The position numbers and the translations under genes were made by a program. Below the pieces are notes generated by a model. It ran no database searches. It was not told the DNA's origin and saw only the letters and a program-made list of their open reading frames with translations. DNA of 64,000 nucleotides from Actinomadura harenae (GTDB lineage: Bacteria > Actinomycetota > Actinomycetes > Streptosporangiales > Streptosporangiaceae). Positions 5,181 to 64,000 of this stretch are shown here, piece by piece; position 1 is the stretch's first letter, and each line of letters begins with the position of its first letter. The DNA is taken from contig NZ_RFFG01000046.1 in NCBI RefSeq assembly GCF_003696215.1, positions 1-64,000 of the forward strand, read 5' to 3'.

Positions 5181-6086
5181 TCAGAAGGTCAGGGCGACCT
5201 TTCCGTGGAGGCCGCCCGCGCGGAAGCGCTCGTGCGCGGCCCGGACGTCGTGGACGCCGAAGGCGGAGTCCACGCGGAGCCGCAGCCGGCCGTGGTCGAC
5301 GAGCTCGGTGAGCTCGTCCAGGCCGGGGCCGTCCTCGCGCACCTGGTGGACGGTGGTGCGGACGCCGCGCGCGGACAGGTCGGGCACCGGGCCGGCCTGC
5401 GTGGCGATCGAGGCGTACCGTCCGCCGTCGGCGACCGCGTCGGTCACGAACGCGCCGAAGGTGTCGAGGACGGCGTCGTAGGCGCGGTCCTCGAGGGCGC
5501 CGGGGTCGGTGGTGACCAGGCCGGCGCCGTGCTCGCGGGCGAAGGCGGCCTGCTCGTCCCGGGAGACCAGGGCGTCGACCCTCACGCCGCGCGCGAGGGC
5601 GATCTGGAGCGCCAGGCCTCCGACCGCGCCCGCGGCCCCGGCGACGAGGAGCCGCTCGCCGGACGAGACCGCGAGCCAGTCCAGGGTCTGGAGGGCGGTC
5701 AGCCCGGGGAGCGGGAGGGTGGCGGCCTCGGCCAGGGTGACCGCGTGCGGCGCGAAGGCCACGGCCTGCGCCGGGAGGGCGACCAGGTCGGCCCAGGTGC
5801 CCCGGCCGGTGGCGAGCTGGTGGGACATCGCGATGACGCGTTCCCCGGCGCCGAGGCCGCTGTCCCCGGCGTCGACGACGATCCCGGCCAGGTCCCAGCC
5901 GAGGGTCATCGGCAGCGGGGGCGTTCCGCCGCCGATGACGCCCTCGCGGGTCTTGTCGTCGACCGGGTTGAGGCTGGTCGCGATGGTCCGGATCAGGACG
6001 TCCCCGGGGCCCGGCTCGGGCCGGGGGACCTCGGCGAGGCCGAGGACGTCGGGGCCGCCGAACCGGTCGATCTGTATTGCGCGCAC
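5181..6086 (-). CDS. NADP-dependent oxidoreductase (MDR, quinone-reductase type)
   Basis: A 301-residue medium-chain dehydrogenase/reductase without the zinc ligands of true alcohol dehydrogenases. The N-terminal GroES-like domain begins MRAIQIDRFGGPDVLGLAEV and carries SLNPVDDKTREG. The Rossmann domain has LLVAGAAGAVGGLALQIA (about residues 145-162) as the nucleotide-binding loop, and the chain ends with the usual HGKVALTF. Expected to reduce quinones or alpha,beta-unsaturated carbonyls with NADPH in the cytoplasm; the real substrate cannot be told. It stands alone, convergent with the 441-aa gene and divergent from the MreB-like gene. Confidence 0.9.
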   Translation of the reverse strand: MRAIQIDRFGGPDVLGLAEVPRPEPGPGDVLIRTIATSLNPVDDKTREGVIGGGTPPLPMTLGWDLAGIVVDAGDSGLGAGERVIAMSHQLATGRGTWADLVALPAQAVAFAPHAVTLAEAATLPLPGLTALQTLDWLAVSSGERLLVAGAAGAVGGLALQIALARGVRVDALVSRDEQAAFAREHGAGLVTTDPGALEDRAYDAVLDTFGAFVTDAVADGGRYASIATQAGPVPDLSARGVRTTVHQVREDGPGLDELTELVDHGRLRLRVDSAFGVHDVRAAHERFRAGGLHGKVALTF

Positions 6087-7608: not shown

Positions 7609-8133
7609 TTGTTCGATTCTCAGAGTGCCGGACGGCGCGCGGCGCTGGCCGCGACGACCCTGGCCTGCGGTGCGGGCCTCGTCTGGGCGGGATCGCCGGC
7701 GTCGGCCGACGCCCGCGGGGACTGGCAGCCGTACCGGGCCAAGCCGTTCGTCGATGTCGGGGTGTGCGCGTTCACGGTGCGCGCCGACATCGTCAACGAC
7801 GAGGAGGAGGTGCGGACGCTCTCCACCTATCCGGACGGCAAGGTCGAGTGGCAGGAGTTCCGGGGCGATCTGCTCATCCGCTTCACCGGCAACGGCCACT
7901 CGGTGGTGCGGGACGTGCCGGGATACGGGTGGTTCCACCACCTCAAGGACGGCACGCTGCGCATTCGGATCGACGGCGGACTCAGCCTCGGGATCAAGCA
8001 GGGCAACGTCGGATCTCCGGCGGGCGAGTACATCCTGCACGGCCGCTTCAACGTGGAGCGCAAGGCGGACGGGAACTGGATCATGCATCCCGCGGGCGCC
8101 ACGGTCGAGAACCTCTGCGACACGCTGAGCTGA
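7609..8133 (+). CDS. Secreted hypothetical protein
   Basis: 174 residues beginning with a Sec-type signal peptide: Arg pair, hydrophobic ALAATTLACGAGLVWAG and a predicted cleavage after the Ala of SPASA (about residue 33). The mature part of about 140 residues is beta-rich (FVDVGVCAFTVRADIVND, RGDLLIRFTGNGHSVVRDV, LGIKQGNVGSPAGEYILHG) and has two cysteines that could form a disulphide. No known domain recognised. The layout resembles other actinomycete exported beta-barrel or lipocalin-like proteins of unknown role. It follows the MreB-like gene by 85 nt but has its own RBS and a very strong terminator. Confidence 0.8.
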   Translation: MFDSQSAGRRAALAATTLACGAGLVWAGSPASADARGDWQPYRAKPFVDVGVCAFTVRADIVNDEEEVRTLSTYPDGKVEWQEFRGDLLIRFTGNGHSVVRDVPGYGWFHHLKDGTLRIRIDGGLSLGIKQGNVGSPAGEYILHGRFNVERKADGNWIMHPAGATVENLCDTLS

Positions 8134-52129: not shown

Positions 52130-52184
52130 GGGTCAGCGGGGCGGGCCGGGGCAGCAGGACCGACCGGGTCAGCGGGGCGGGCCG
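52130..52184 (+). repeat. 19-bp direct repeat, 36-bp step
   Basis: GGGTCAGCGGGGCGGGCCG at 52130-52148 and again at 52166-52184, between the stop of the PfkB gene and the convergent NB-ARC gene (whose 3' end it overlaps). Probably slippage; I see no hairpin. Confidence 0.6.
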
Positions 52185-54319
52185 TCCGCCAGGTCGGCCA
52201 GCCTCCGCTCGACGGCACCGGCCGGCAGGCCGAGGCCGGTCAGGATCGTCCTGGCCTCGTCGAGGAGCCGGACGGCGGTGACAGGGGCGCCGCCGTCCAC
52301 CTCGAACTCGGCGTAGGCCCGCAGGACGGAGGCCGTTCCGGCGCCGGATCCGATCTCCCGCATCCGGGCGAGCGCCTCGGCGAACAGCGGCGCGGCCTCG
52401 TCGCGCGCGCCGATTCCGGCCTTCGCGCGCGCGAGGAAGAGGATCGTGCGGGCCATGCTGTTGGGGTCGCGGACACCGCTGAGGGCGTCCCGCGCCTCGG
52501 TGAGGACCCTGACGGCCTCGTGCGCGCGTCGCGCGTCCACGAGGACTCCCCCGAGGTCGGCCAGGGTGCGCGCGGCCCGCCGGGTCTCTCCGAGTTCGCG
52601 GTAGACGGCGATGGCGTCCCCGTAGCGGCGGACGGCCGGGTCCCAGCGGCGCCGGTCCGCGTCGAGGATGCCGAGCCTGCGGCTGATCCCGCCCACGCGC
52701 TGCCGGTTTCCCAGCTCCTCCCAGAGGGCGCGCGCGGCGAGGAAGTCGCGTTCCGCTCCGTCCAGGTCGCCCAGGACGCGGCGGGTGAGGCCCGTGCGGC
52801 TGAGCATCTTGGCCTCGGCCTCGGCGTCGCCCGCGCTTCGGGCCGCCGCCAGCCCGAGTTCCTCGAAGCCGAGCCGGTCCGTCCGGTGGCCTCGATGGAC
52901 GAAGAGGGGCCACAGGGCGTCCACCAGGAGCCAGCACGCTTCGTACAGCCCGGCTTCCGCGGCCATGGACGCGACGGCGTGCAGGCCGGTGAACTCGGCG
53001 TCCAGCCAGTCCAGGGCCTCGGCGGACGTCGCGAACTCCAGCGCGCCCGGCACCCCGGCGGCCTCGCCCGGCTCGCGAAGCCGCCGGTAGGGAGCGATCG
53101 CGCCGCTCGCCGCGAGCGCCGTCCGCAGGCACCAGGCCGTGGCGCGTTCCATGGCCGCCGCACGCTCCTCCGGCGCGATGGACTCCAGTGCCGTCTGGCG
53201 TGCGTGCAGCCGCGTCAGCTCATGGAACCGGTACCGCCCGGACGGAACCTCGTCGAGCAGGTTGGCGTCGGCGAGGGTCTCCAGGGCGAGCGCCGCGTCG
53301 TCCACCGGGACGGCGGCCAGCGCGGCCGCGACATGCGCGTCGAACGCGCCGCCGGGGTAGAGGCCGAGCAGCGCGTAGAGGTACTGCGCGGGCTCGGGCA
53401 GGGCCTGCCGGGACAGTTCCAAAGCGGCCTCCACGGTGACGCCGTCCTGGAGGTCCTGCGCGGCGAGGACGGCCAGCCGCCGCCGCTCCTCCTCCAGGGC
53501 CTCGACGATCCCCTCGACCGTCCAGGCCGGGCGGCTGGCCAGGCGCGCGGCGGCGACCGTGAGCGCCAGCGGCAGCCCCGCGCACAGCTCCGCCAGCCGG
53601 ACGGCGTGGGTGTGCTCGCGGTCGACCCGGTCCGCGCCGACCATCAGGGCGAGCAGCTCCATCGCCGCCGCGTCCTCGAACGGCTCGACCCGGACGCCCC
53701 GCGCGCCCCGCACCAGCAGCCCGGCCAGCCGCCACCGGCTGGTGACCAGCGCGAGACTGCCGGACGAGGCGGGCAGCAGCGGCGTCACCTGCGCGGCCGA
53801 GAACGCGTCGTCCAGCACGACCAGGACGCGCCGGTCCGCCGACATCGACCGGTACAGCGCGGCCCGTTCCCCCAGCTCCACCGGGATCCGGGCGGGTGGG
53901 ACGCCGAGCGCGCGCAGGAACCCGCCGAGGACGTCGGCGGGCAGGGCGGGCCCGACCGGGGCGTGACCGCGGAGATCGGCGTAGAGCTGGCCGTCCGGGA
54001 AGTCGTGCTGCCGTGAGTGCGCCCAGTTCAGTGCGACGGTGGTCTTGCCGATGCCCGGCGGGCCGCTCAGCACGACGGCGCCACCGGGACCATCCGGGCC
54101 GTCCGGATCCGGCCGAAAGCGGTCGAGCTCCTCGAGCGTCCTCGTCCGGTTCACGAGCGTCCGGGTGGCGGGGAGCTGCCGCGGCCGGACGGGCTCCCGC
54201 GCGGGCGCGCGCATGTTGACGGTGCCGCTGAGCTCGCCGACCTGGATGACGGGCCCCGCGACGTCCCCGCTGAACTCGTTCACGGGACGCTCGTGGGGAG
54301 GGCCGTCGGCGTGCGTCAT
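52169..54319 (-). CDS. NB-ARC/TPR STAND protein
   Basis: 716 residues: a short N-terminal effector-linker FSGDVAGPVIQVGELSGTVN (about 18-37) of the type that precedes STAND ATPases, an NB-ARC domain (about 50-330) with Walker A VLSGPPGIGKTTVALNWAHS and Walker B RVLVVLDDAFSAAQV, a winged-helix segment, and TPR-like repeats (about 450-716, AGDAEAEAKMLSRTGLTRRV, LGNRQRVGGISRRLGILDAD). There is no SARP or other DNA-binding domain. ATG 54319 is 8 nt downstream of TAAATG, without RBS, so probably leaderless. Convergent with the GT-PfkB operon; could sense the same signal as the SARP protein. Confidence 0.87.
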   Translation of the reverse strand: MTHADGPPHERPVNEFSGDVAGPVIQVGELSGTVNMRAPAREPVRPRQLPATRTLVNRTRTLEELDRFRPDPDGPDGPGGAVVLSGPPGIGKTTVALNWAHSRQHDFPDGQLYADLRGHAPVGPALPADVLGGFLRALGVPPARIPVELGERAALYRSMSADRRVLVVLDDAFSAAQVTPLLPASSGSLALVTSRWRLAGLLVRGARGVRVEPFEDAAAMELLALMVGADRVDREHTHAVRLAELCAGLPLALTVAAARLASRPAWTVEGIVEALEEERRRLAVLAAQDLQDGVTVEAALELSRQALPEPAQYLYALLGLYPGGAFDAHVAAALAAVPVDDAALALETLADANLLDEVPSGRYRFHELTRLHARQTALESIAPEERAAAMERATAWCLRTALAASGAIAPYRRLREPGEAAGVPGALEFATSAEALDWLDAEFTGLHAVASMAAEAGLYEACWLLVDALWPLFVHRGHRTDRLGFEELGLAAARSAGDAEAEAKMLSRTGLTRRVLGDLDGAERDFLAARALWEELGNRQRVGGISRRLGILDADRRRWDPAVRRYGDAIAVYRELGETRRAARTLADLGGVLVDARRAHEAVRVLTEARDALSGVRDPNSMARTILFLARAKAGIGARDEAAPLFAEALARMREIGSGAGTASVLRAYAEFEVDGGAPVTAVRLLDEARTILTGLGLPAGAVERRLADLADGPPR

Positions 54320-54378
54320 CCCTCGCACATTTACCCGGGCACGACGGCCTGTCAACTACCGGACGGCCTGTCAACAAC

Positions 54379-56807: not shown

Positions 56808-58379
56808 TCACCTGCCGTCGGGACGGCGCAGGCTGACGATCTGGGTCATCCCCTCGTCCTGGATGGCCTGTGGCGGCGGACGCCGGACACTGTCGCTCAG
56901 CCGCACCAGGACGGCGATGAGGATCCAGTTCGCCATCAGCGACGAACCGCCCTGCGTCATGAACGGAGTGGTGATGCCCGCGAACGGGATGAGCCCGGTG
57001 ACGCCGCCGACGATGACGAACAGCTGGAGCGCGAACACGAACGCGACGCCGCCCGCGAGCAGCCGGTTGAAGGCGTCCTTGGACGCGACCGCGATCCGGA
57101 AGCCGCGCTGCACCAGCAGCAGGTAGACGGTCAGGATCGCCATCGCGCCGGTCAGGCCGAGCTCCTCGCCGAACGAGGTGAAGATCTCGTCGCTGAACGC
57201 CAGCGGGGTCATGTACGGGCGCCCCTGCCCGAGGCCCGTGCCGAGCACCCCGCCCTGCCCCATCGCGAACAGTCCCTGCTCGAGCTGCGAACTGTCGGAG
57301 TACTGGCCGCCCATCGCCGTGCAGTCGGCGATGGGATGCGGGTGCGTGACGCCGAACTCCTTCAGGATCTGGCCGCTCTTGAGCTGGCAGCCGCCGTTGA
57401 AGTACGGACTCGGGTCCTTCCAGATCTCGACGCGCTGCACCAGGTGCTCCAGCGGCCCGTGGACGGCGACGCCGAGGTAGTAGATCGACAGCGATCCGAC
57501 CGCGAACAGCAGGACGCCGATGACGACGTATCCGCCGCGTCCGGTGCCGAGGTAGAGCATGCAGACCAGCAGGCCGAAGAACAGCAGCTGGAAGCCGAAG
57601 TCGTTCTGGATCAGCAGGACCCCGATGCTGACCAGCCAGATCACCACGATCGGCATCAGATGCCGGGCGCGCGGCAGCGCCACGGGGCCGACCTTGCGCC
57701 CGGTGACGGCCATCGCCTGGCCGTTCTTGGCCAGATAGCCCGCGAACAGGGTGATCAGCGCGAGCTTGGAGAACTCGGCGGGCTGCACCGAGAACGGGCC
57801 GAGCCGGATCCACACCCGGGCGCCGTTGATGTTCGCGCCGATGCCCGGGACGATCGGCAGCACCAGGAACAGCAGCCCGGCGAGGCCGAGCGTGTAGTGG
57901 TAGCGGCGCAGCGTGCGCGGGTCCCGCAGGACCAGGACGAACACGGCGAACAGGCCGAGTGACAGGGCCGTCCACATCAACTGCCCCGCGACGTCCGCGC
58001 CCGCCCCGAACGGGACATAGTGCTTACCGGGATGGTCGTGCTCGAACTGGAGCTTGCTCTGCAGGTAGTCGCCCGCCGTGGTCTGGTCGATCCGGTAGAT
58101 GATCGCCAGCCCGACGCCGTTCAGCAGCAGCGCGCAGGGCACCAGCAGCGGGTCGGCGTGCGGCGCCCAGCGCCACACCACCCCGTACGCCACGGCCGAC
58201 AGCACGACGATCGCGGCGCCGTAGCCGAACAGCGAGGCGGGCAGCCTCCCGTCCCGGACGAGGCCGACCTGGGCGAACGCGGAGACGGTCACGACGAGCG
58301 CGAACGCGGTCAGCGCGAGGGACGCCGCGCGGCGCGGCCCGGGGAACCGGTAGGGCGGGACGCTGTCGGGTGCGCTCAA
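56808..58379 (-). CDS. SEDS-family (FtsW/RodA/SpoVE) membrane protein
   Basis: 523 residues, longer than usual for the family, with about ten or more helices. Signatures: ARVWIRLGPFSVQPAEFSKL, VLLIQNDFGFQLLFFGLLVC, LGTGLGQGRPYMTPLAFSDE and FTSFGEELGLTGAMAILTVY. SEDS proteins polymerise glycan strands from lipid II together with a class B PBP. No PBP gene is adjacent, unlike the rodA-pbpA pairs of the actinobacterial origin region, so this is likely an accessory, perhaps sporulation-linked, copy. ATG 58379. Confidence 0.9.
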   Translation of the reverse strand: MSAPDSVPPYRFPGPRRAASLALTAFALVVTVSAFAQVGLVRDGRLPASLFGYGAAIVVLSAVAYGVVWRWAPHADPLLVPCALLLNGVGLAIIYRIDQTTAGDYLQSKLQFEHDHPGKHYVPFGAGADVAGQLMWTALSLGLFAVFVLVLRDPRTLRRYHYTLGLAGLLFLVLPIVPGIGANINGARVWIRLGPFSVQPAEFSKLALITLFAGYLAKNGQAMAVTGRKVGPVALPRARHLMPIVVIWLVSIGVLLIQNDFGFQLLFFGLLVCMLYLGTGRGGYVVIGVLLFAVGSLSIYYLGVAVHGPLEHLVQRVEIWKDPSPYFNGGCQLKSGQILKEFGVTHPHPIADCTAMGGQYSDSSQLEQGLFAMGQGGVLGTGLGQGRPYMTPLAFSDEIFTSFGEELGLTGAMAILTVYLLLVQRGFRIAVASKDAFNRLLAGGVAFVFALQLFVIVGGVTGLIPFAGITTPFMTQGGSSLMANWILIAVLVRLSDSVRRPPPQAIQDEGMTQIVSLRRPDGR

Positions 58380-58866
58380 GGGGGATGCCTCTCAGCCGGG
58401 TCGACGATGACGCACCCAAATATTTGCACATTTGCGCAACGAATAAATACGATGGCCCGGTCGGGCGGGAGACGCCGGACGCCGGCCCTGACCCCCGGCG
58501 TCCGCACCGGTCCCACCCGGACAGGTGGCCGTCCGGGCCCCTCGTGACCGGGCCCGGACGGCCCGCCGCCCGGCGCATGCACGGACGTCCTGCGCGCGCC
58601 GCGCACGGACGTCCTGCACGAAGGGGGGTCGCCAGGCGGCCCCGGTCCCGGAGGACCACCCGATCCGTCCCCCGGGGCCGGGGTCTTCCCTGCCCGGACT
58701 CGCGTTCCAGGTCGGGGGCGCCGCGCCGCGCGGCCCGGACAGGGCACCCCAGATCCCCGTCCGAACCGGGGCGGTCGCGCGGCGGCACCCCGACCTGGAA
58801 CGCTCCAGGCGCCCACCGGTGCCCGGTCGGCCGGCCCCACCGCCGCCCGGCCGGACGGTCCGGGGG
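58380..58866. other. Repeat-bearing non-coding region
   Basis: About 490 nt without a credible gene. An AT-rich patch (58415-58450) next to the SEDS start is its likely promoter zone. GCACGGACGTCCTGC occurs at 58579-58593 and 58603-58617. The 19-bp CGATCCGTCCCCCGGGGCC at 58661-58679 recurs at 59027-59045, part of a larger duplicated 3' flank. Confidence 0.55.
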
Positions 58867-58893
58867 CTAGTGGACCCGTATCCGGATCTTCAT
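58867..58893 (-). pseudogene. Collapsed third copy of the small SH3-like gene
   Basis: A nine-codon frame, ATG AAG ATC to CAC TAG (MKIRIRVH), with GGGAG 6 nt upstream. It begins like the two SH3-like genes to the right (MKLW, MKTW) and ends like them (KRVR, RKVR, here RIRVH), and the DNA after the stop matches the flank after the 59142 gene. I read it as a paralogue that lost its middle. A leader peptide is the alternative. Confidence 0.35.
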
Positions 58894-59141
58894 GAACGTC
58901 TCCCTCGCGCTCGGCGCGGAGGCCGCCTCGCGCTTCGCGTGCCGACCGCCGTTCGCCCACGTCAGGCCCCCGAGAAACGCACCGCGCCGGCCGACCTGGG
59001 ACAGGGCACGACCCCGGAGGACGGGGCGATCCGTCCCCCGGGGCCAGAGGGGTGCCGGTCGCCTGGACACCCACTCCAGGCGGACCCCTCGTGTCCGGCC
59101 GGCCGAGCCCCACCGCCAGGCCGGCCGGACGCTCCATGGAG
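58894..59141. repeat. Duplicated 3' flank of the SH3-like gene
   Basis: Contains the second copy of the 19-mer (59027-59045) plus matching GGCCGGCC, CCCCACCGCC and CCGGCCGGACG blocks in the same order as 58661-58866. No gene seen. Confidence 0.5.
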
Positions 59142-59465
59142 CTAGCGGACCCTCTTCAGGTAGTGACCGTCGGCCCAGCCCATCGGGCGGGTGAGATGAA
59201 CCCAGGTGCGGTTGTCGGCACGGTGCGTCCTGCAGTCACCGGGGACCCGCTTGGCGTCGTAACGCAGGCGGGCGACGACCCGGTACCGCAGGCCCGGGCC
59301 GGACCTGACGTTCAGGGTGTGGCCGGGCAGAATGTGCACCACGTCGTAGTAGCAGACCGGCGCGGACGCCGGGCTCGCGATCGTGCTCGCATCCGCCTGC
59401 GCGGGCGCCAGCAGCGAGGCCGCGGCCAGCGGGACGGCCAGAGCTGCCGTCTTCCAGAGCTTCAT
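59142..59465 (-). CDS. Small secreted SH3-like protein, copy 1
   Basis: 107 residues with a Sec signal peptide (KLWKTAALAVPLAAASLLAP, cleavage after about ADA, residue 27). The mature ~80 residues look like a bacterial SH3 domain: YDVVHILPGHTLNVRSGPGL, RYRVVARLRYDAKRVPGDC, TWVHLTRPMGWADGHYLKRV. Two cysteines (CYYD and GDC) probably pair. Such SH3b domains often bind cell-wall peptidoglycan. Very similar in plan to the next gene, with conserved GWADGH and PGDCR. Confidence 0.85.
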   Translation of the reverse strand: MKLWKTAALAVPLAAASLLAPAQADASTIASPASAPVCYYDVVHILPGHTLNVRSGPGLRYRVVARLRYDAKRVPGDCRTHRADNRTWVHLTRPMGWADGHYLKRVR

Positions 59466-59639
59466 GAGTAACCCCCTTCACGTGCTCGTGCGAACTGTCG
59501 AAGAAGTGCAACACGAGCTGAAAGAAGCCTCAAGAAAGGCTGAACTCACCAGAGCGCCACATAGCGCCCTGGAGAGCCCTGTCGTCGCAGGTCAGAGGGG
59601 GTGAGACGGGACGATCTCCCGCGCCGGAGCCAGCCCACA

Positions 59640-59655
59640 GTGACCCCGTGGTCAC
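59640..59655. promoter_or_regulatory. Palindrome upstream of SH3-like copy 1
   Basis: GTGACC-CCGT-GGTCAC, perfect 6-bp arms, about 175 nt upstream of the ATG. The same element, with one change, sits at the same distance before copy 2. Confidence 0.5.
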
Positions 59656-59706
59656 AGGCGGGCGATCCACCGTTCGGGCAGCTCAGAGCCCCAGAACCCG
59701 ATTCGG

Positions 59707-60021
59707 CTACCGGACCTTCCGCAGGAAGTGGCCGTCCGCCCAGCCCTTGGGCCGGTGGAGGTAGACCCAGCCGTGCCGGGACTTGCGGCAGTCACCGGGC
59801 ACCCGCCTGGCGTCGTGCCTCAGATGGCCCACCACCCGGAATCTCCGGCCGGGACCCGTCCGGACCCTCAGGACGTGATGGTCGTGGACACGGATCACGT
59901 TCCAGCGGCAGGTGTGCACCGGCCTCGGCCGGGCCGTCTGGCTCGCCTCGGCCTGGGCGGGGGCCAGCATCGAGAACGTGATCAGGGGGACGGCCAGGGC
60001 CGCCGTCTGCCAGGTCTTCAT
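59707..60021 (-). CDS. Small secreted SH3-like protein, copy 2
   Basis: 104 residues, tandem paralogue of the previous gene: signal peptide KTWQTAALAVPLITFSMLAP, then CRWNVIRVHDHHVLRVRTGP, RRFRVVGHLRHDARRVPGDC, WVYLHRPKGWADGHFLRKVR. It is richer in His and Arg than copy 1. ATG 60021 has GAAGGAGGG 5 nt upstream; a longer frame to 60087 has no RBS. Upstream DNA is also similar to that of copy 1, so the duplication included the promoter. Confidence 0.85.
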   Translation of the reverse strand: MKTWQTAALAVPLITFSMLAPAQAEASQTARPRPVHTCRWNVIRVHDHHVLRVRTGPGRRFRVVGHLRHDARRVPGDCRKSRHGWVYLHRPKGWADGHFLRKVR

Positions 60022-60193
60022 GGTTCCCTCCTTCGCGTACTGCGCGGGCTGTTGAAGGAGTGCAGCACGGGTCAGGAGGGGCCTCAAGGAAGCCTGAGCT
60101 CACCGAGCCGACAGGTGGCCCCGAGGCGAGCCCTATAAGCGCAGGTCAGCGGCCTGACAGCAGGACGGGCGCCCGCTCCGGAGGCACAGCACC

Positions 60194-60209
60194 GTGACCT
60201 CGTGGTCAT
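60194..60209. promoter_or_regulatory. Palindrome upstream of SH3-like copy 2
   Basis: GTGACC-TCGT-GGTCAT, matching the element at 59640-59655 with one arm mismatch, about 175 nt upstream of the ATG of copy 2. Confidence 0.45.
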
Positions 60210-60283
60210 ACGCCCACGAGGCCACGTTCTCCCTGCTCAGAGGCCATCGAGCCGAGCCCGGCGCCGTCCGACCCGCGGCCGGT

Positions 60284-61999
60284 TCAGTGGACCCGGCTGG
60301 CCGTCCGGGCCGTGTCCTCCGCGTGCTCCTCGTGGACGAACCGCTTGCCGCGCAGCAGCGAGGCGACGGCCGCGACCAGTGACATGACTATGGCCAGCGA
60401 GAACACGATGACCAGACCGTGGTGGAACGGCCCGGAGATCAGGTGCGGGAAGTAGGACCGTCCGGTCAGCGCGGCGGCGTCGCCGGGCGGCAGGGAGGCG
60501 AGGACGCCGCCCTGGCCGAGCAGGCTGCCGATCGGGTTGTAGCCGAGGAACGCGGCGAACAGCGTGCCGACCGGCGGCAGGCTCGCGACATGATCCGCCG
60601 CCGACGCCGGGACGCCGTGGGAGGTCAGGCCGCTCGACAGCGTGCCCGGCAGCCGGTCCGCGAGGCCCGCGATCATCAGCGAGAAGAACACGCCGATCGA
60701 CAGGACCATCCCGGCGTTCATGAAGGTGGCCCGCATCCCGGACGCCACGCCCCGCTGGTCGGCCGGGACCGCGTTCATGATCGCGGTGGTGTTGGGCGCG
60801 GCGAACAGCCCCGAGCCCAGCCCGTTCACGAAGATCAGCAGGGCGAACAGCCAGTACGGGAAGTCGGTCGGGATCAGCAGCAGTCCCGCGAAGGCCGCCG
60901 CGGACACCAGCAACCCGCCGGACGCGAACGCCCGCGCGCCGTGCCGGTCCGACAGGTGGCCCGAGAGCGGCCCGGCGACCAGGAACCCGACGGTCAGCGG
61001 CAGCAGGTAGATCCCGGCCCACAGCGGGGTGTCGGCGAAGTCGTAGCCGTGCAGCGGCAGCCAGATGCCCTGCAGCCAGATGATCAGCATGAACTGCATG
61101 CCGCCGCGGGCGATCGCCGCGAGCAGCCCGGCGGCGTTGCCCGCGGCGAACGCCCGGATCCGGAACAGGCCGAGCCGGAACATGGGCTCCGGGACCCGCG
61201 TCTCGATGAGGCAGAACGCCGCCAGCAGGGCGATCCCGCCGATGATCCCGGTGAGCACCCACGGGTTCGTCCAGCCCATGACGTGGCCGCCGTAGGGCTG
61301 GATGCCGTAGGTGATCGCGGCGAGCAGCGCGGTCAGCCCGACGGCGAAGGTGAGGTTCCCGGCCCAGTCGATGCGGATCCGCGTGGCGCGCCGCGCGGTC
61401 TCGACGAGGCTGCGGTAGGCCCAGATCGTCCCGATGATGCCGATCGGCGCGGACGCGAAGAACACCAGCCGCCAGCTGACCTCGCTCAGCAGGCCGCCCG
61501 CGACCAGCCCGAGGAAGCTGCCCGCGATGCCCGCGACCTGGTTGACGCCCATGGCCATGCCGCGCCGGTCGGCGGGGAACGCGTCGGTGAGGATGGCCGC
61601 GGAGTTGGCCATCAGCATGGCGCCGCCGATGCCCTGGAAGATCCGCCAGGCGATCAGCCAGATCGCGCCCGCGGAGCCGTGCAGCGGGTCGAGCGCCAGC
61701 ACGAGCGTCCCGACCGTGAACACCGCGAAGCCCGCGTTGTACATGCGGACGCGCCCGAACAGGTCGCCCAGCCGTCCGAGGGTCACCACCAGGACGGCCG
61801 ACACGAGCATGTAGCCCATCAGGATCCACAGCAGGTAGCTGACGTTGCCGGGCTGGAGCGGGTCCAGGTGGATCCCGCGGAAGATCGCGGGCAGCGAGAT
61901 GATCACGATGGAGGAGTTGACCGTGGCCAGCAGCATGCCGAGCGTGGTGTTGCTCAGCGCGATCCAGGAGTAGCGGGTCGAGTTGCGGGCGGTGCCCAC
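60284..61999 (-). CDS. DHA2-family MFS exporter, second
   Basis: 571 residues with 14 predicted helices: MLLATVNSSIVIISLPAIFR (helix 1), LGRLGDLFGRVRMYNAGFAV (motif A), RIFQGIGGAMLMANSAAILT and MGVNQVAGIAGSFLGLVAGG. It has a long periplasm-side loop near 480-520 and a short cytoplasmic tail. Such proteins export drugs or metabolites. GTG 61999 follows GGAGG by 5 nt. Not closely similar to the exporter at 54432. A dyad at 62046-62061 lies in its promoter region. Confidence 0.92.
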   Translation of the reverse strand: MGTARNSTRYSWIALSNTTLGMLLATVNSSIVIISLPAIFRGIHLDPLQPGNVSYLLWILMGYMLVSAVLVVTLGRLGDLFGRVRMYNAGFAVFTVGTLVLALDPLHGSAGAIWLIAWRIFQGIGGAMLMANSAAILTDAFPADRRGMAMGVNQVAGIAGSFLGLVAGGLLSEVSWRLVFFASAPIGIIGTIWAYRSLVETARRATRIRIDWAGNLTFAVGLTALLAAITYGIQPYGGHVMGWTNPWVLTGIIGGIALLAAFCLIETRVPEPMFRLGLFRIRAFAAGNAAGLLAAIARGGMQFMLIIWLQGIWLPLHGYDFADTPLWAGIYLLPLTVGFLVAGPLSGHLSDRHGARAFASGGLLVSAAAFAGLLLIPTDFPYWLFALLIFVNGLGSGLFAAPNTTAIMNAVPADQRGVASGMRATFMNAGMVLSIGVFFSLMIAGLADRLPGTLSSGLTSHGVPASAADHVASLPPVGTLFAAFLGYNPIGSLLGQGGVLASLPPGDAAALTGRSYFPHLISGPFHHGLVIVFSLAIVMSLVAAVASLLRGKRFVHEEHAEDTARTASRVH

Positions 62000-62045
62000 G
62001 CGGACCTCCGGAGGGGGCGACGGCGGGTGCTGTTCAATCGTTTCT

Positions 62046-62061
62046 TATGCTAACTAACATA
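62046..62061. promoter_or_regulatory. AT-rich dyad upstream of second exporter
   Basis: TATGCTAACTAACATA, 12 of 16 positions symmetric, in a locally AT-rich stretch between the exporter and the 62121 gene. It resembles MarR-type operators (TTAGTTAGCATA core on the other strand). TAACAT (62055-62060) could be a -10 for the rightward gene. Confidence 0.4.
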
Positions 62062-62120
62062 CGCCAAAGGGTGGCATCCGTCACGTTCCGGGTAGGAGTG
62101 CGGCGAAGGAGGCGCACCCG

Positions 62121-62831
62121 GTGTCCGACGTCGAACTGGCCCGTGATCTGGCCGACTCCCTGCTGCTCGCGGCGGGCCGCCCGCGCCGCGCCCTGGCCCC
62201 GCCCGGGCCCGGCGCCGCGTCCCGCGTCCGCGCCGACTGCGCGCTGCGCGCCGAACCGGACGCGCTCGTCCGGATGCGACTGCGCTTCCTGCACTTCCAG
62301 GCCCGCCGGGTCGAGCCGGACGGCGTCGCGGACTGCCACGGCATCGCCCTGCACCCCGGGGACGAGGCCGTCGCGGAGGAGATCGCGCCCGAGTACCGGC
62401 TCGCGGACCTGCTCGCCGCCGAGCACACGCTGGTCCGGGTCGTCCCGGCGCGCCGGACGGTCGAGCCCCTCGTGTGCGGACGCGTCGTCCGCAGTCGCTG
62501 GCCCATCCACGTCCTCGTGCGCACGCGCGCGGAGGCGTTCGCCCGCGCCGGACGCCGGGCACAGGGGTTGACGCGGCTGAGCATCGAGGTCCTGAACGTC
62601 ACCGACTGGCCGCACTCGCTCGACCCGGACGACGCGCTGCGGCGCTCGCTGCTCGTCCCGCATCTGATCGTCGCGCTGGACGGCGCCGTCTTCGTCCCGC
62701 CGGACCGCCCGCGCGAGCGGGACGACCTCTGGCCGGTCCTGCTGGCGGGCGACCTGCTGCTCGCCTCGCCCGTCCCGCTGCCCGACCGCCCGGACATGCC
62801 GATCACCGGGCGGCGCGCCGCCGGCGCCTGA
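62121..62831 (+). CDS. Hypothetical protein, 236 aa
   Basis: No family recognised. It is a soluble, Arg/Asp-rich protein: VELARDLADSLLLAAGRPRR at the start, FLHFQARRVEPDGVADCHGI, RSRWPIHVLVRTRAEAFARA and LVPHLIVALDGAVFVPPDRP in the middle, LPDRPDMPITGRRAAGA at the end. GTG 62121 follows GGAGG by 8 nt. Divergent from the DHA2 exporter and 55 nt before an SDR gene that has its own promoter. Confidence 0.65.
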   Translation: MSDVELARDLADSLLLAAGRPRRALAPPGPGAASRVRADCALRAEPDALVRMRLRFLHFQARRVEPDGVADCHGIALHPGDEAVAEEIAPEYRLADLLAAEHTLVRVVPARRTVEPLVCGRVVRSRWPIHVLVRTRAEAFARAGRRAQGLTRLSIEVLNVTDWPHSLDPDDALRRSLLVPHLIVALDGAVFVPPDRPRERDDLWPVLLAGDLLLASPVPLPDRPDMPITGRRAAGA

Positions 62832-62848
62832 CCGGCGTGGCGGCGCGG

Positions 62849-62879
62849 TTGACATGGAGCGCGCTCCAGATGCTGGGAT
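62849..62879 (+). promoter_or_regulatory. MerR-type promoter with spacer dyad
   Basis: -35 TTGACA (62849-62854), 19-nt spacer, -10 TGGGAT (62874-62879), then 7 nt to ATG 62887. The spacer contains the perfect 14-bp palindrome TGGAGCGCGCTCCA (62855-62868). A long 19-bp spacer filled by a dyad is the hallmark of MerR-activated promoters. Confidence 0.65.
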
Positions 62880-62886
62880 CGGTGCC

Positions 62887-63588
62887 ATGACCGAATCCCA
62901 CGTCACCCTCATCACCGGCGGCGGCACCGGCATCGGCGCGGCCACCGCCCGCGAGCTGATCGCCGCCGGACGCAAGGTCGCGATCACCGGCCGACGGCAG
63001 GACCGCCTCGACCAGGTGGCCAAGGAACTGGGCGAGCCGGACGCCCTGCTGACCATCGCGGGCGACGCCTCCGACTACGGGGACGTCGAGGCCGCCGTCC
63101 GGGCCACGGTCGAGCGGTTCGGGCGCCTCGACGCCGTCGTCGCGAACGCGGGCGGCGCCAAGGGGCGCTCGGTGGCCGACTCCGACCCGGACGACATGCG
63201 CGAGATGGTCCTGACCAACGTGCTCGGACCGGCCTACCTGATCAAGGCGGCGCTGCCCGAGCTGACGGCGTCCAAGGGCCGGATCGTGATCGTCGGCAGC
63301 GTCGCCGGGTTCGTGAACACCCCCGGCAACCTGTACGGCGCGACGAAGTGGGCGATGACCGGCCTGGCGGAGAACACCCGCCGTCTGGTGTCCTCCGACG
63401 GCGTCGGCGTCACGCTGATCGCGCCGGGCGCGACCGAGTCCGACTTCTGGGAGCACGTCGGGAAGCCGGACTACCCGCACATGCTGACGTCGGAGGACAT
63501 CGGCCGCGCCATCGTCTGGGCGGTGGCGCAGCCGTACGGCGTGGACGTGAACACCCTGGTCGTCCGCCCGATCGGCCAGGCGAACTGA
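62887..63588 (+). CDS. SDR-family oxidoreductase
   Basis: 233 residues: TLITGGGTGIGAATARELIA (cofactor loop, about 7-26), ITGRRQDRLDQVAKELG, GDASDYGDVEAAV, VVANAGGAKG, catalytic Ser in IVIVGSVAGFVN and Tyr-x-x-x-Lys in GNLYGATKWAMTGLAENTRR. Classical SDR of unknown substrate; the ARG after strand 2 suggests NADP(H). No RBS; the ATG lies 7 nt after the -10, so the mRNA is probably leaderless. Controlled by a MerR-type promoter but no MerR gene is in view. Confidence 0.9.
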   Translation: MTESHVTLITGGGTGIGAATARELIAAGRKVAITGRRQDRLDQVAKELGEPDALLTIAGDASDYGDVEAAVRATVERFGRLDAVVANAGGAKGRSVADSDPDDMREMVLTNVLGPAYLIKAALPELTASKGRIVIVGSVAGFVNTPGNLYGATKWAMTGLAENTRRLVSSDGVGVTLIAPGATESDFWEHVGKPDYPHMLTSEDIGRAIVWAVAQPYGVDVNTLVVRPIGQAN

Positions 63589-63606
63589 CCGGACCGTCCC
63601 GCGCGG

Positions 63607-64000
63607 CTACTCCTTGAACAGCAGCCGCTCGAACGGCACCGGCTCCTCGAAGGGGTCGGGCTTGGCGGCGGGGGCCCGTCCGATGATCGTGTCGGCGAGC
63701 TCCCGCCCGGCCCGGGTGACCCGCTCGGCCAGCTCGCCGCTCCCCCAGTCCTCGGTCGCCGCGTACACGGCGGTCCGCTGGACGGAGGCGCGCAGGTAGG
63801 CGAACAGCGGACGCATCGCGAAGTCGATCGCGAGCGAGTGCCGGGGCGTGCCGCCGGTCGCGCCGAGCAGCGTGGGCGTGTTCTCCAGCGCGTCCTTGTC
63901 GAGCACGTCGAAGAACGTCTTGAACAGGCCGCTGTAGGACGCCTGGAACACCGGTGTGACGGCGATCAGGGCGTCCGCGCCGGTCACGGCCTCGACGGCG
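63607..64000 (-). CDS. NAD(P)H-dependent FMN reductase, partial
   Basis: The frame continues past the right window edge, so the N-terminus (including the first FMN-binding GSxxxxSxT) is missing. What remains, about 130 residues, has the flavodoxin-like DALIAVTPVFQASYSGLFKT, FFDVLDKDALENTPTLLGAT and HSLAIDFAMRPLFAYL, which fit the CE1759/MsuE-type FMN reductases. These supply reduced flavin to monooxygenases. It is convergent with the SDR gene, 18 nt apart, with no hairpin. Confidence 0.85.
   Translation of the reverse strand, partial: AVEAVTGADALIAVTPVFQASYSGLFKTFFDVLDKDALENTPTLLGATGGTPRHSLAIDFAMRPLFAYLRASVQRTAVYAATEDWGSGELAERVTRAGRELADTIIGRAPAAKPDPFEEPVPFERLLFKE

Follow-up and report, generated by a model that had tools for sequence, protein, structure and literature searches.

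Two small neighbouring genes on the minus strand of a 64,000-nucleotide stretch of Actinomadura harenae DNA (the window) seem to encode related secreted proteins, and beside them lie a nine-codon frame, MKIRIRVH, and a SEDS gene. The original prediction, made from the letters of this stretch, read the locus as a tandem family of tiny SH3-like proteins whose third member had lost its middle, took this turnover as a sign of selection, for example in cell-wall or inter-strain interaction, and pointed to the orphan SEDS gene next to it. The question raised by the locus is whether a third gene ever stood there, what kind of protein the family encodes and what the turnover of its members means. The coordinates of the features are collected in Table 1.

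Table 1. Features of the array, its upstream elements and its flanks in the window
Feature	Position	Strand	Description
Copy A	59142..59465	minus	107 aa, probably secreted SH3-type protein; ORF, orthologues, SH3 fold model
Copy B	59707..60021	minus	104 aa, probably secreted SH3-type protein; ORF, G073 orthologue
MKIRIRVH frame	58867..58893	minus	scar of copy C, read from sequence: a piece resembling a gene start, joined to the closing codons of the family
Remnant of the distal upstream region of copy C	58941..58985	minus	matches the region upstream of G073 copy C
Palindrome TGACC-N4-GGTCA	59641..59654	.	operator-like; 189 nt upstream of copy A
Palindrome TGACC-N4-GGTCA	60195..60208	.	operator-like; 187 nt upstream of copy B
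Promoter-like block CTTGAGGC...CGTG.TGCACT, copy A	59505..59534	minus	one of 2 genome sites; promoter reading by eye
Promoter-like block, copy B	60059..60088	minus	second of 2 genome sites
Hairpin 1 after copy A	59092..59141	minus	-35.8 kcal/mol, z -3.4
Hairpin 2 after copy A	59050..59092	minus	-21.2 kcal/mol, z -1.3, within shuffle range
Hairpin 3 after copy A	59005..59050	minus	contains one 19-mer; -34.6 kcal/mol, z -4.2
Hairpin 1 after scar	58810..58866	minus	aligns with copy A hairpin 1; z -1.1, within shuffle range
Hairpin 2 after scar	58695..58810	minus	long nested palindrome; -89.5 kcal/mol, z -7.0
Hairpin 3 after scar	58636..58690	minus	contains the other 19-mer; -36.5 kcal/mol, z -1.9, within shuffle range

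Two small basic proteins with a probable SH3b-type fold

Both genes were found as open frames, the start of copy B being set at the inner ATG at 60021 (a longer frame with a TTG start is also in the ORF list). The two proteins are 59% identical in amino acids and their upstream DNA is 66.7% identical over 228 aligned nucleotides, which confirms the predicted pair of about 105 residues with a common plan, upstream region and size. Copies A and B are single-domain, basic proteins with two cysteines, and no catalytic domain was found in either. The N-terminus resembles a signal peptide in all eight proteins of the array family (judged by eye), the two cysteines of the mature part are invariant in these eight, and the pI of the mature part ranges from 9.45 to 12.0 (10.6 for copy A and 12.0 for copy B). 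A and B are probably secreted.

The mature part of copy A, the only protein modelled, gave a model with a pLDDT of 96.7 from an alignment of 38 sequences; a model built earlier on 8 sequences was of low quality (pLDDT 63). The best structural match was the phiSM101 endolysin 4krt (Z 10.4, 66 aligned, rmsd 1.9), with further matches to the fungal muramidase 8b2g (Z 9.0) and to 2krs (Z 8.4), while eukaryotic SH3 structures scored near Z 5.5; the top rows of the structural alignment were mostly SH3-type domains of wall hydrolases. Foldseek returned no match to the same model at E<=0.001, the best being 2krs with an E value of 0.039. Comparison of the 38-sequence profile with PDB sequences gave 4krt (E 1.5e-9), 2krs (E 3.6e-7) and 2kq8 (E 1.5e-6), and the profile of the eight copies gave only chance-level matches (S18, an NADH subunit, and 2krs with an E value of 0.61). 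Pfam SH3_3 (PF08239) matched 36 of the 38 aligned members and five of the eight array-family members at E<=1, the best of the latter at 6.9e-5, and its cut-off of 27 bits was not reached by copy A (19.3 bits), copy B having no match. Model, profile and fold support the SH3-like assignment, though both proteins stay below the Pfam cut-off.

The eight-copy profile also found the domain at E<=1e-6 in at least 51 of 200 genomes of the taxonomic family (own included) and in at least 17 of 68 genera, up to 24 candidates being scored per genome, so that both counts are lower bounds; in these members the domain is often repeated within one frame. Of nine loci inspected in other Actinomadura relatives, six (L010, L011, L013, L014, L021 and L026, by eye) encode a related protein whose C-terminus is a hydrophobic stretch with RRR behind it, a hint of an envelope location. 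On contig C51 of genome G001 (L011, L021, L026), three neighbouring SH3 genes form a second, separate tandem set, and their proteins combine such an end with a signal-peptide-like start.

The array in related genomes

A search of the genus with copy B gave matches at E<=1e-8 in 4 of 65 genomes (own included): that of the window, A. oligospora ATCC 43269 (G073), A. logoneensis NEAU-G17 (G034) and G033, where the match spans 45 residues. With copy A as the query, 12 of 59 genomes (own included) matched at E<=0.001, mostly weakly. A title-level search of the literature, which sets the extent to which we call the array undescribed, found no title on such an SH3 array.

The array consists of one gene of 155 aa in G033, of two genes and the scar in the window, of copy A, a further copy D and a fragment of copy C in A. 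logoneensis, where there is also one unlinked copy, and of three intact tandem genes in A. oligospora. Gain and loss of copies, as had been proposed, is thereby borne out in four genomes. The order MFS, TetR, array, MFS is common to the window, A. oligospora and G033, with the SEDS gene between TetR and the array in the window and G033. The same genes of A. logoneensis lie on two contigs, both of which end inside the array in what looks like hairpin sequence, so that the gene order given for this species is a presumed one. Two observations were made beside the array: the window encodes an NB-ARC/TPR protein (52169-54355, minus) adjoining the MFS gene, and the SH3 gene of G033 (L128 6141-6608) contains a 30-nt tandem repeat, by which a 10-residue motif with the end GMAKVRSGP is encoded about six times in a row, one loop of the domain having been amplified.

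Orthologues of copy A are 77% identical in amino acids in A. oligospora and 76% in A. logoneensis, and the orthologue of copy B in A. oligospora is 73% identical. In coding DNA, the window and A. oligospora are 84.6% identical for A and 80.3% for B, against 69-71% between A and B; these identities show the A/B split to be older than the split between the window species and A. oligospora. Over three neighbour genes (3798 columns), G033 was outermost (p-distance of 0.096-0.099 against 0.077-0.089 among the others) and the site patterns favoured a grouping of the window with A. oligospora (53 against 35 and 29). At third positions, the window was closest to A. logoneensis, whose distances to G033 and A. 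oligospora were both 0.169. The tree of the four genomes is not firm. The diagnostic sites of A and B form a mosaic pattern in A. logoneensis, for which unequal crossing-over was considered.

A third copy and its scar

A full-length third copy stands at the syntenic place in A. oligospora (copy C, L035 8160-8477, 105 aa). It has the start, the cysteines and the GW...YL end of the family and lacks LNVRSGPG, and 16 of its 79 mature residues are tyrosines. The alignment of the window with this genome falls into a left block (58395-58857, 74.5% over 483 columns) and a right block (58980-64000, 88.5% over 5091 columns), and the gap between the BLAST anchors measures 122 nt in the window and 597 nt in A. 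oligospora.

The MKIRIRVH frame was found at this place, with the predicted nine codons (eight and a TAG), and four pieces of the sequence around it were compared with the family (24 comparisons in all). The outer piece (58941-58985) matched the distal upstream region (4/1500 GC-matched controls as good), piece 58879-58912 matched the region of the gene start (11/1500) and piece 58867-58890 matched the terminal 60 nt of the gene (1/1500), the start and end pieces overlapping by 12 nt. Piece 58905-58945 is ambiguous between the distal upstream region (39/1500) and the signal and linker region (113/1500), and neither match survives the 24 comparisons. Matches to the family, in the correct order of distal upstream region, gene start and gene end, were seen for three of the four pieces. 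Compared with the signal region of copy A, the stretch 58895-58985 outscored all 200 shuffles under strict scoring, and under looser scoring 11 of 200 did as well, such matches being cheap because the sequence is GC-rich. A scar made of a C-terminal remainder only was considered and rejected: against the C-terminal region, the 35 nt before its final 11-mer were equalled by 9501 of 10000 controls, but they resemble the start region, where 142 of 10000 controls and 9 of 1379 GC-matched ones equalled them.

In A. logoneensis, copy C is left as an internal fragment that resembles residues 24-61 (57%, E 3.8e-5), so the boundaries of this loss differ from those in the window, and the simplest reading is that of two separate losses, one in the lineage of the window and one in A. 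logoneensis. The ordered pieces and the intact copy C of A. oligospora uphold the view of a third copy that lost its middle; on this sequence evidence the MKIRIRVH frame is the deletion scar of a third array member.

Duplicated 3' flanks and hairpins

The 19-mer noticed in the flanks of copy A and the scar is exact at both of its sites (58661-58679 and 59027-59045), where a search recovered 18 of its letters without mismatch, and makes up half of hairpin 3. Taken alone it is weak, since 1.0 match with up to three mismatches is expected per window and 27 of 100 shuffles reached two. When the 9.35-Mb genome was searched with 58600-58866, the flank that lies 3' of the scar, two collinear blocks were found in the flank of copy A, at 59074-59135 (82%, E 3.4e-7) and at 59013-59045 (88%, E 3.3e-4). 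The two flanks align past the 19-mer, and the proposed duplication of the flank stands. The search scored 40 out of 363 candidates from the first look, so that weaker copies may exist elsewhere; its other matches were the inverse of the flank itself and one match of 37 nt at another place. The flank of copy A, used as the query, gave a few further short matches outside the array in A. logoneensis and A. oligospora.

Copy A and the scar are each followed by three hairpins in equal order. In the window, hairpins 1 and 3 of copy A and hairpin 2 of the scar fold distinctly better than shuffled sequence, and the other three do not; hairpin 3 has four homologues in L035 and L037 that do, with z values from -3.6 to -6.7. 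From their sequence the hairpins look terminator-like, without a U-run. The hairpin flank of copy D in A. logoneensis (L037 556-669) contains a perfect 57-nt tandem duplication, a sign of recent rearrangement.

Upstream elements

The palindrome TGACC-N4-GGTCA occurs exactly twice in the window and was found at -184 to -190 before copies A, B and C of A. oligospora and copy A of A. logoneensis; it was absent from the 194-253 nt inspected before copy D and the unlinked copy of A. logoneensis, the G033 gene and the scar. The block CTTGAGGC...TGCACT has two sites in the whole genome at up to three mismatches, before A and B, and CTTGAGGC precedes 7 of the 10 units inspected. Genome-wide, palindrome and block occur together at such spacing only before A and B, and the scar has neither of them. 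We regard the promoter-like block as a candidate promoter and the operator-like palindrome as a candidate operator.

Evolutionary rates and the meaning of the turnover

Comparison of the window with A. oligospora by a simple counting method gave a dN of 0.137 and a dS of 0.311 for copy A (ratio 0.44) and a dN of 0.188 and a dS of 0.367 for copy B (ratio 0.51, and 0.62 for the mature part). For copy A, the ratio was 0.22 between the window and A. logoneensis, inside the range of the neighbours, and 0.36 between A. oligospora and A. logoneensis. The three neighbour genes had ratios of 0.16-0.30 between the window and A. oligospora and of 0.16-0.31 over all pairs, with dN from 0.03 to 0.10, and none of their 994 stretches of 105 residues was as diverged as A or B between the window and A. 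oligospora. Between paralogues, the ratio was 0.56-0.65 for A and B and, in A. oligospora, 1.07 for A and C and 1.20 for B and C. Judged by these rates, A and B evolve fast yet constrained, and copy C may be relaxed or under selection that favours change. The suggestion that the turnover reflects selection for change finds no support in the orthologue ratios of 0.22-0.51, all below 1.

The raised ratios between the window and A. oligospora would also suit nearly neutral debris, that is, low-use secreted proteins that duplicate and decay by chance, as would the presence of matches at E<=1e-8 in only 4 of 65 genomes of the genus (own included) and the fact that copy C decayed in two lineages, in each to end points of its own. 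We consider this unlikely, since A and B are open and orthologous in the window and A. oligospora, the cysteines are invariant in all eight copies and the upstream elements keep a nearly fixed spacing. Diffusible cationic antimicrobial or inter-strain agents, whose turnover would be an arms race, would agree with the very basic mature parts, with the faster change of A and B than of their neighbours between the window and A. oligospora and with the gain and loss of copies. However, the ORF list, read by eye, has no further gene inside the array that could give immunity, no antimicrobial family was among the Pfam and NCBIfam matches, and the low orthologue ratios point the other way, which makes this explanation rather improbable.

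Assembly, SEDS gene and neighbourhood

The scar could be an error of assembly that collapsed a hairpin-rich stretch and hid an intact third gene; the assembly consists of 279 contigs, and the contigs of A. logoneensis break off within the array, apparently in hairpins. But the paralogues are only about 60-71% identical in DNA, so the copies are too different to be merged, and the scar has a sequence of its own and sits inside a contig of 65,972 nt. We hold such an error to be very improbable and keep to a deletion of copy C.

The SEDS gene starts at 58379, on the same strand as the MKIRIRVH frame, and is 92% identical to a gene in the same neighbourhood of G033. It is also about 55-61% identical to a gene in most genomes of the genus, 54 of 65 (own included) having a match at E<=1e-150; the 11 genomes without one include A. 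logoneensis and A. oligospora, whose best matches are distant paralogues elsewhere. No SEDS gene was found beside the array in these two species, and because two of three relatives keep the array without it, the link proposed between the SEDS gene and the array is weak, G033 alone having both. The gene may be an old resident lost in A. logoneensis and A. oligospora or a gain common to the window and G033. An AT-rich block with TTGCGCAA.TGTGCAAA lies before the SEDS gene in the window (about 58405-58450) and in G033 (L128, about 5820-5865), and also in A. oligospora (L035, about 7725-7770) despite the lack of a SEDS gene there, where it could be a left-over SEDS promoter.

That MKIRIRVH is a leader peptide which, with the hairpins, attenuates the SEDS gene has next to no likelihood in our judgement: the shared strand, a purine-rich GAGGGAG before the ATG (by eye) and the hairpins between frame and SEDS start would fit, but like hairpins lie behind the array in A. 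oligospora and A. logoneensis with no SEDS gene downstream, the SEDS gene of G033 follows a full SH3 gene with no leader, and the end of the frame matches the end of the SH3 genes.

Discussion

The locus is probably a lineage-specific Actinomadura tandem array of small SH3b proteins that gains and loses copies and whose products probably bind the envelope. Each intact unit would pair a gene with a conserved upstream region of its own, and a hairpin set lies behind some copies. The proteins would be exported by way of the N-terminal signal peptide, and the mature part would fold as a single SH3b barrel, which the two invariant cysteines may hold together. They could bind the wall or another envelope polymer, a ligand guessed from the fold, with the strong positive charge helping, and deletion and recombination across the repeats of the upstream regions and hairpins would shift the copy number. 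To judge by the fold, envelope binding is the likely role of A and B; because a catalytic domain is absent, they may modulate wall enzymes or form a surface coat that the cell can do without, rather than act as enzymes themselves. A bolder version, in which the strongly basic, stand-alone SH3b proteins of a fast-changing array cover or adjust the wall of one Actinomadura clade, controlled by a regulator that recognises TGACC-N4-GGTCA, and in which an enemy that attacks the wall (a phage, for instance, or the lysin of a competitor) selects for the loss of copies and for the roughly six-fold amplification of the VRSGPG loop in G033, is speculative and has a small chance of being right.

The array offers a clean example of birth and death among small envelope-type proteins of actinomycetes, with one gene found in related species in an intact, a fragmentary and a scarred form. 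Should the proteins bind the wall, a minimal natural set of SH3b binders would be at hand for comparison. No general principle is overturned; this is ordinary birth and death of small genes around a known fold.

Among known systems, the SH3_3 domains of Pfam, such as 4krt and 2krs (CPF_0587 of C. perfringens), have the barrel and the LNVRSGPG...GW...YL pattern in common with the array proteins, which differ in being stand-alone domains with a signal-peptide-like start and no enzyme attached, in their two cysteines and very basic character, and in falling under the Pfam cut-off. The SH3b domains of the C. perfringens autolysin are described as proposed binders of peptidoglycan peptides (PMC8470621). 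The SH3 proteins of the taxonomic family and of G001, G005, G009 and G015 contain such a domain once or several times; they are often multi-domain or end in the hydrophobic stretch with RRR, and in G001 their genes are neighbours. The SH3b domain of lysostaphin is described as anchoring to peptidoglycan by binding pentaglycine in a groove (PMC6461655). Its structure (5leo) is of the same fold class as copy A, with a middling Z of 6.9, and offers a working model for wall binding on the level of the fold; the lysostaphin domain anchors an enzyme, whereas the array proteins carry none.
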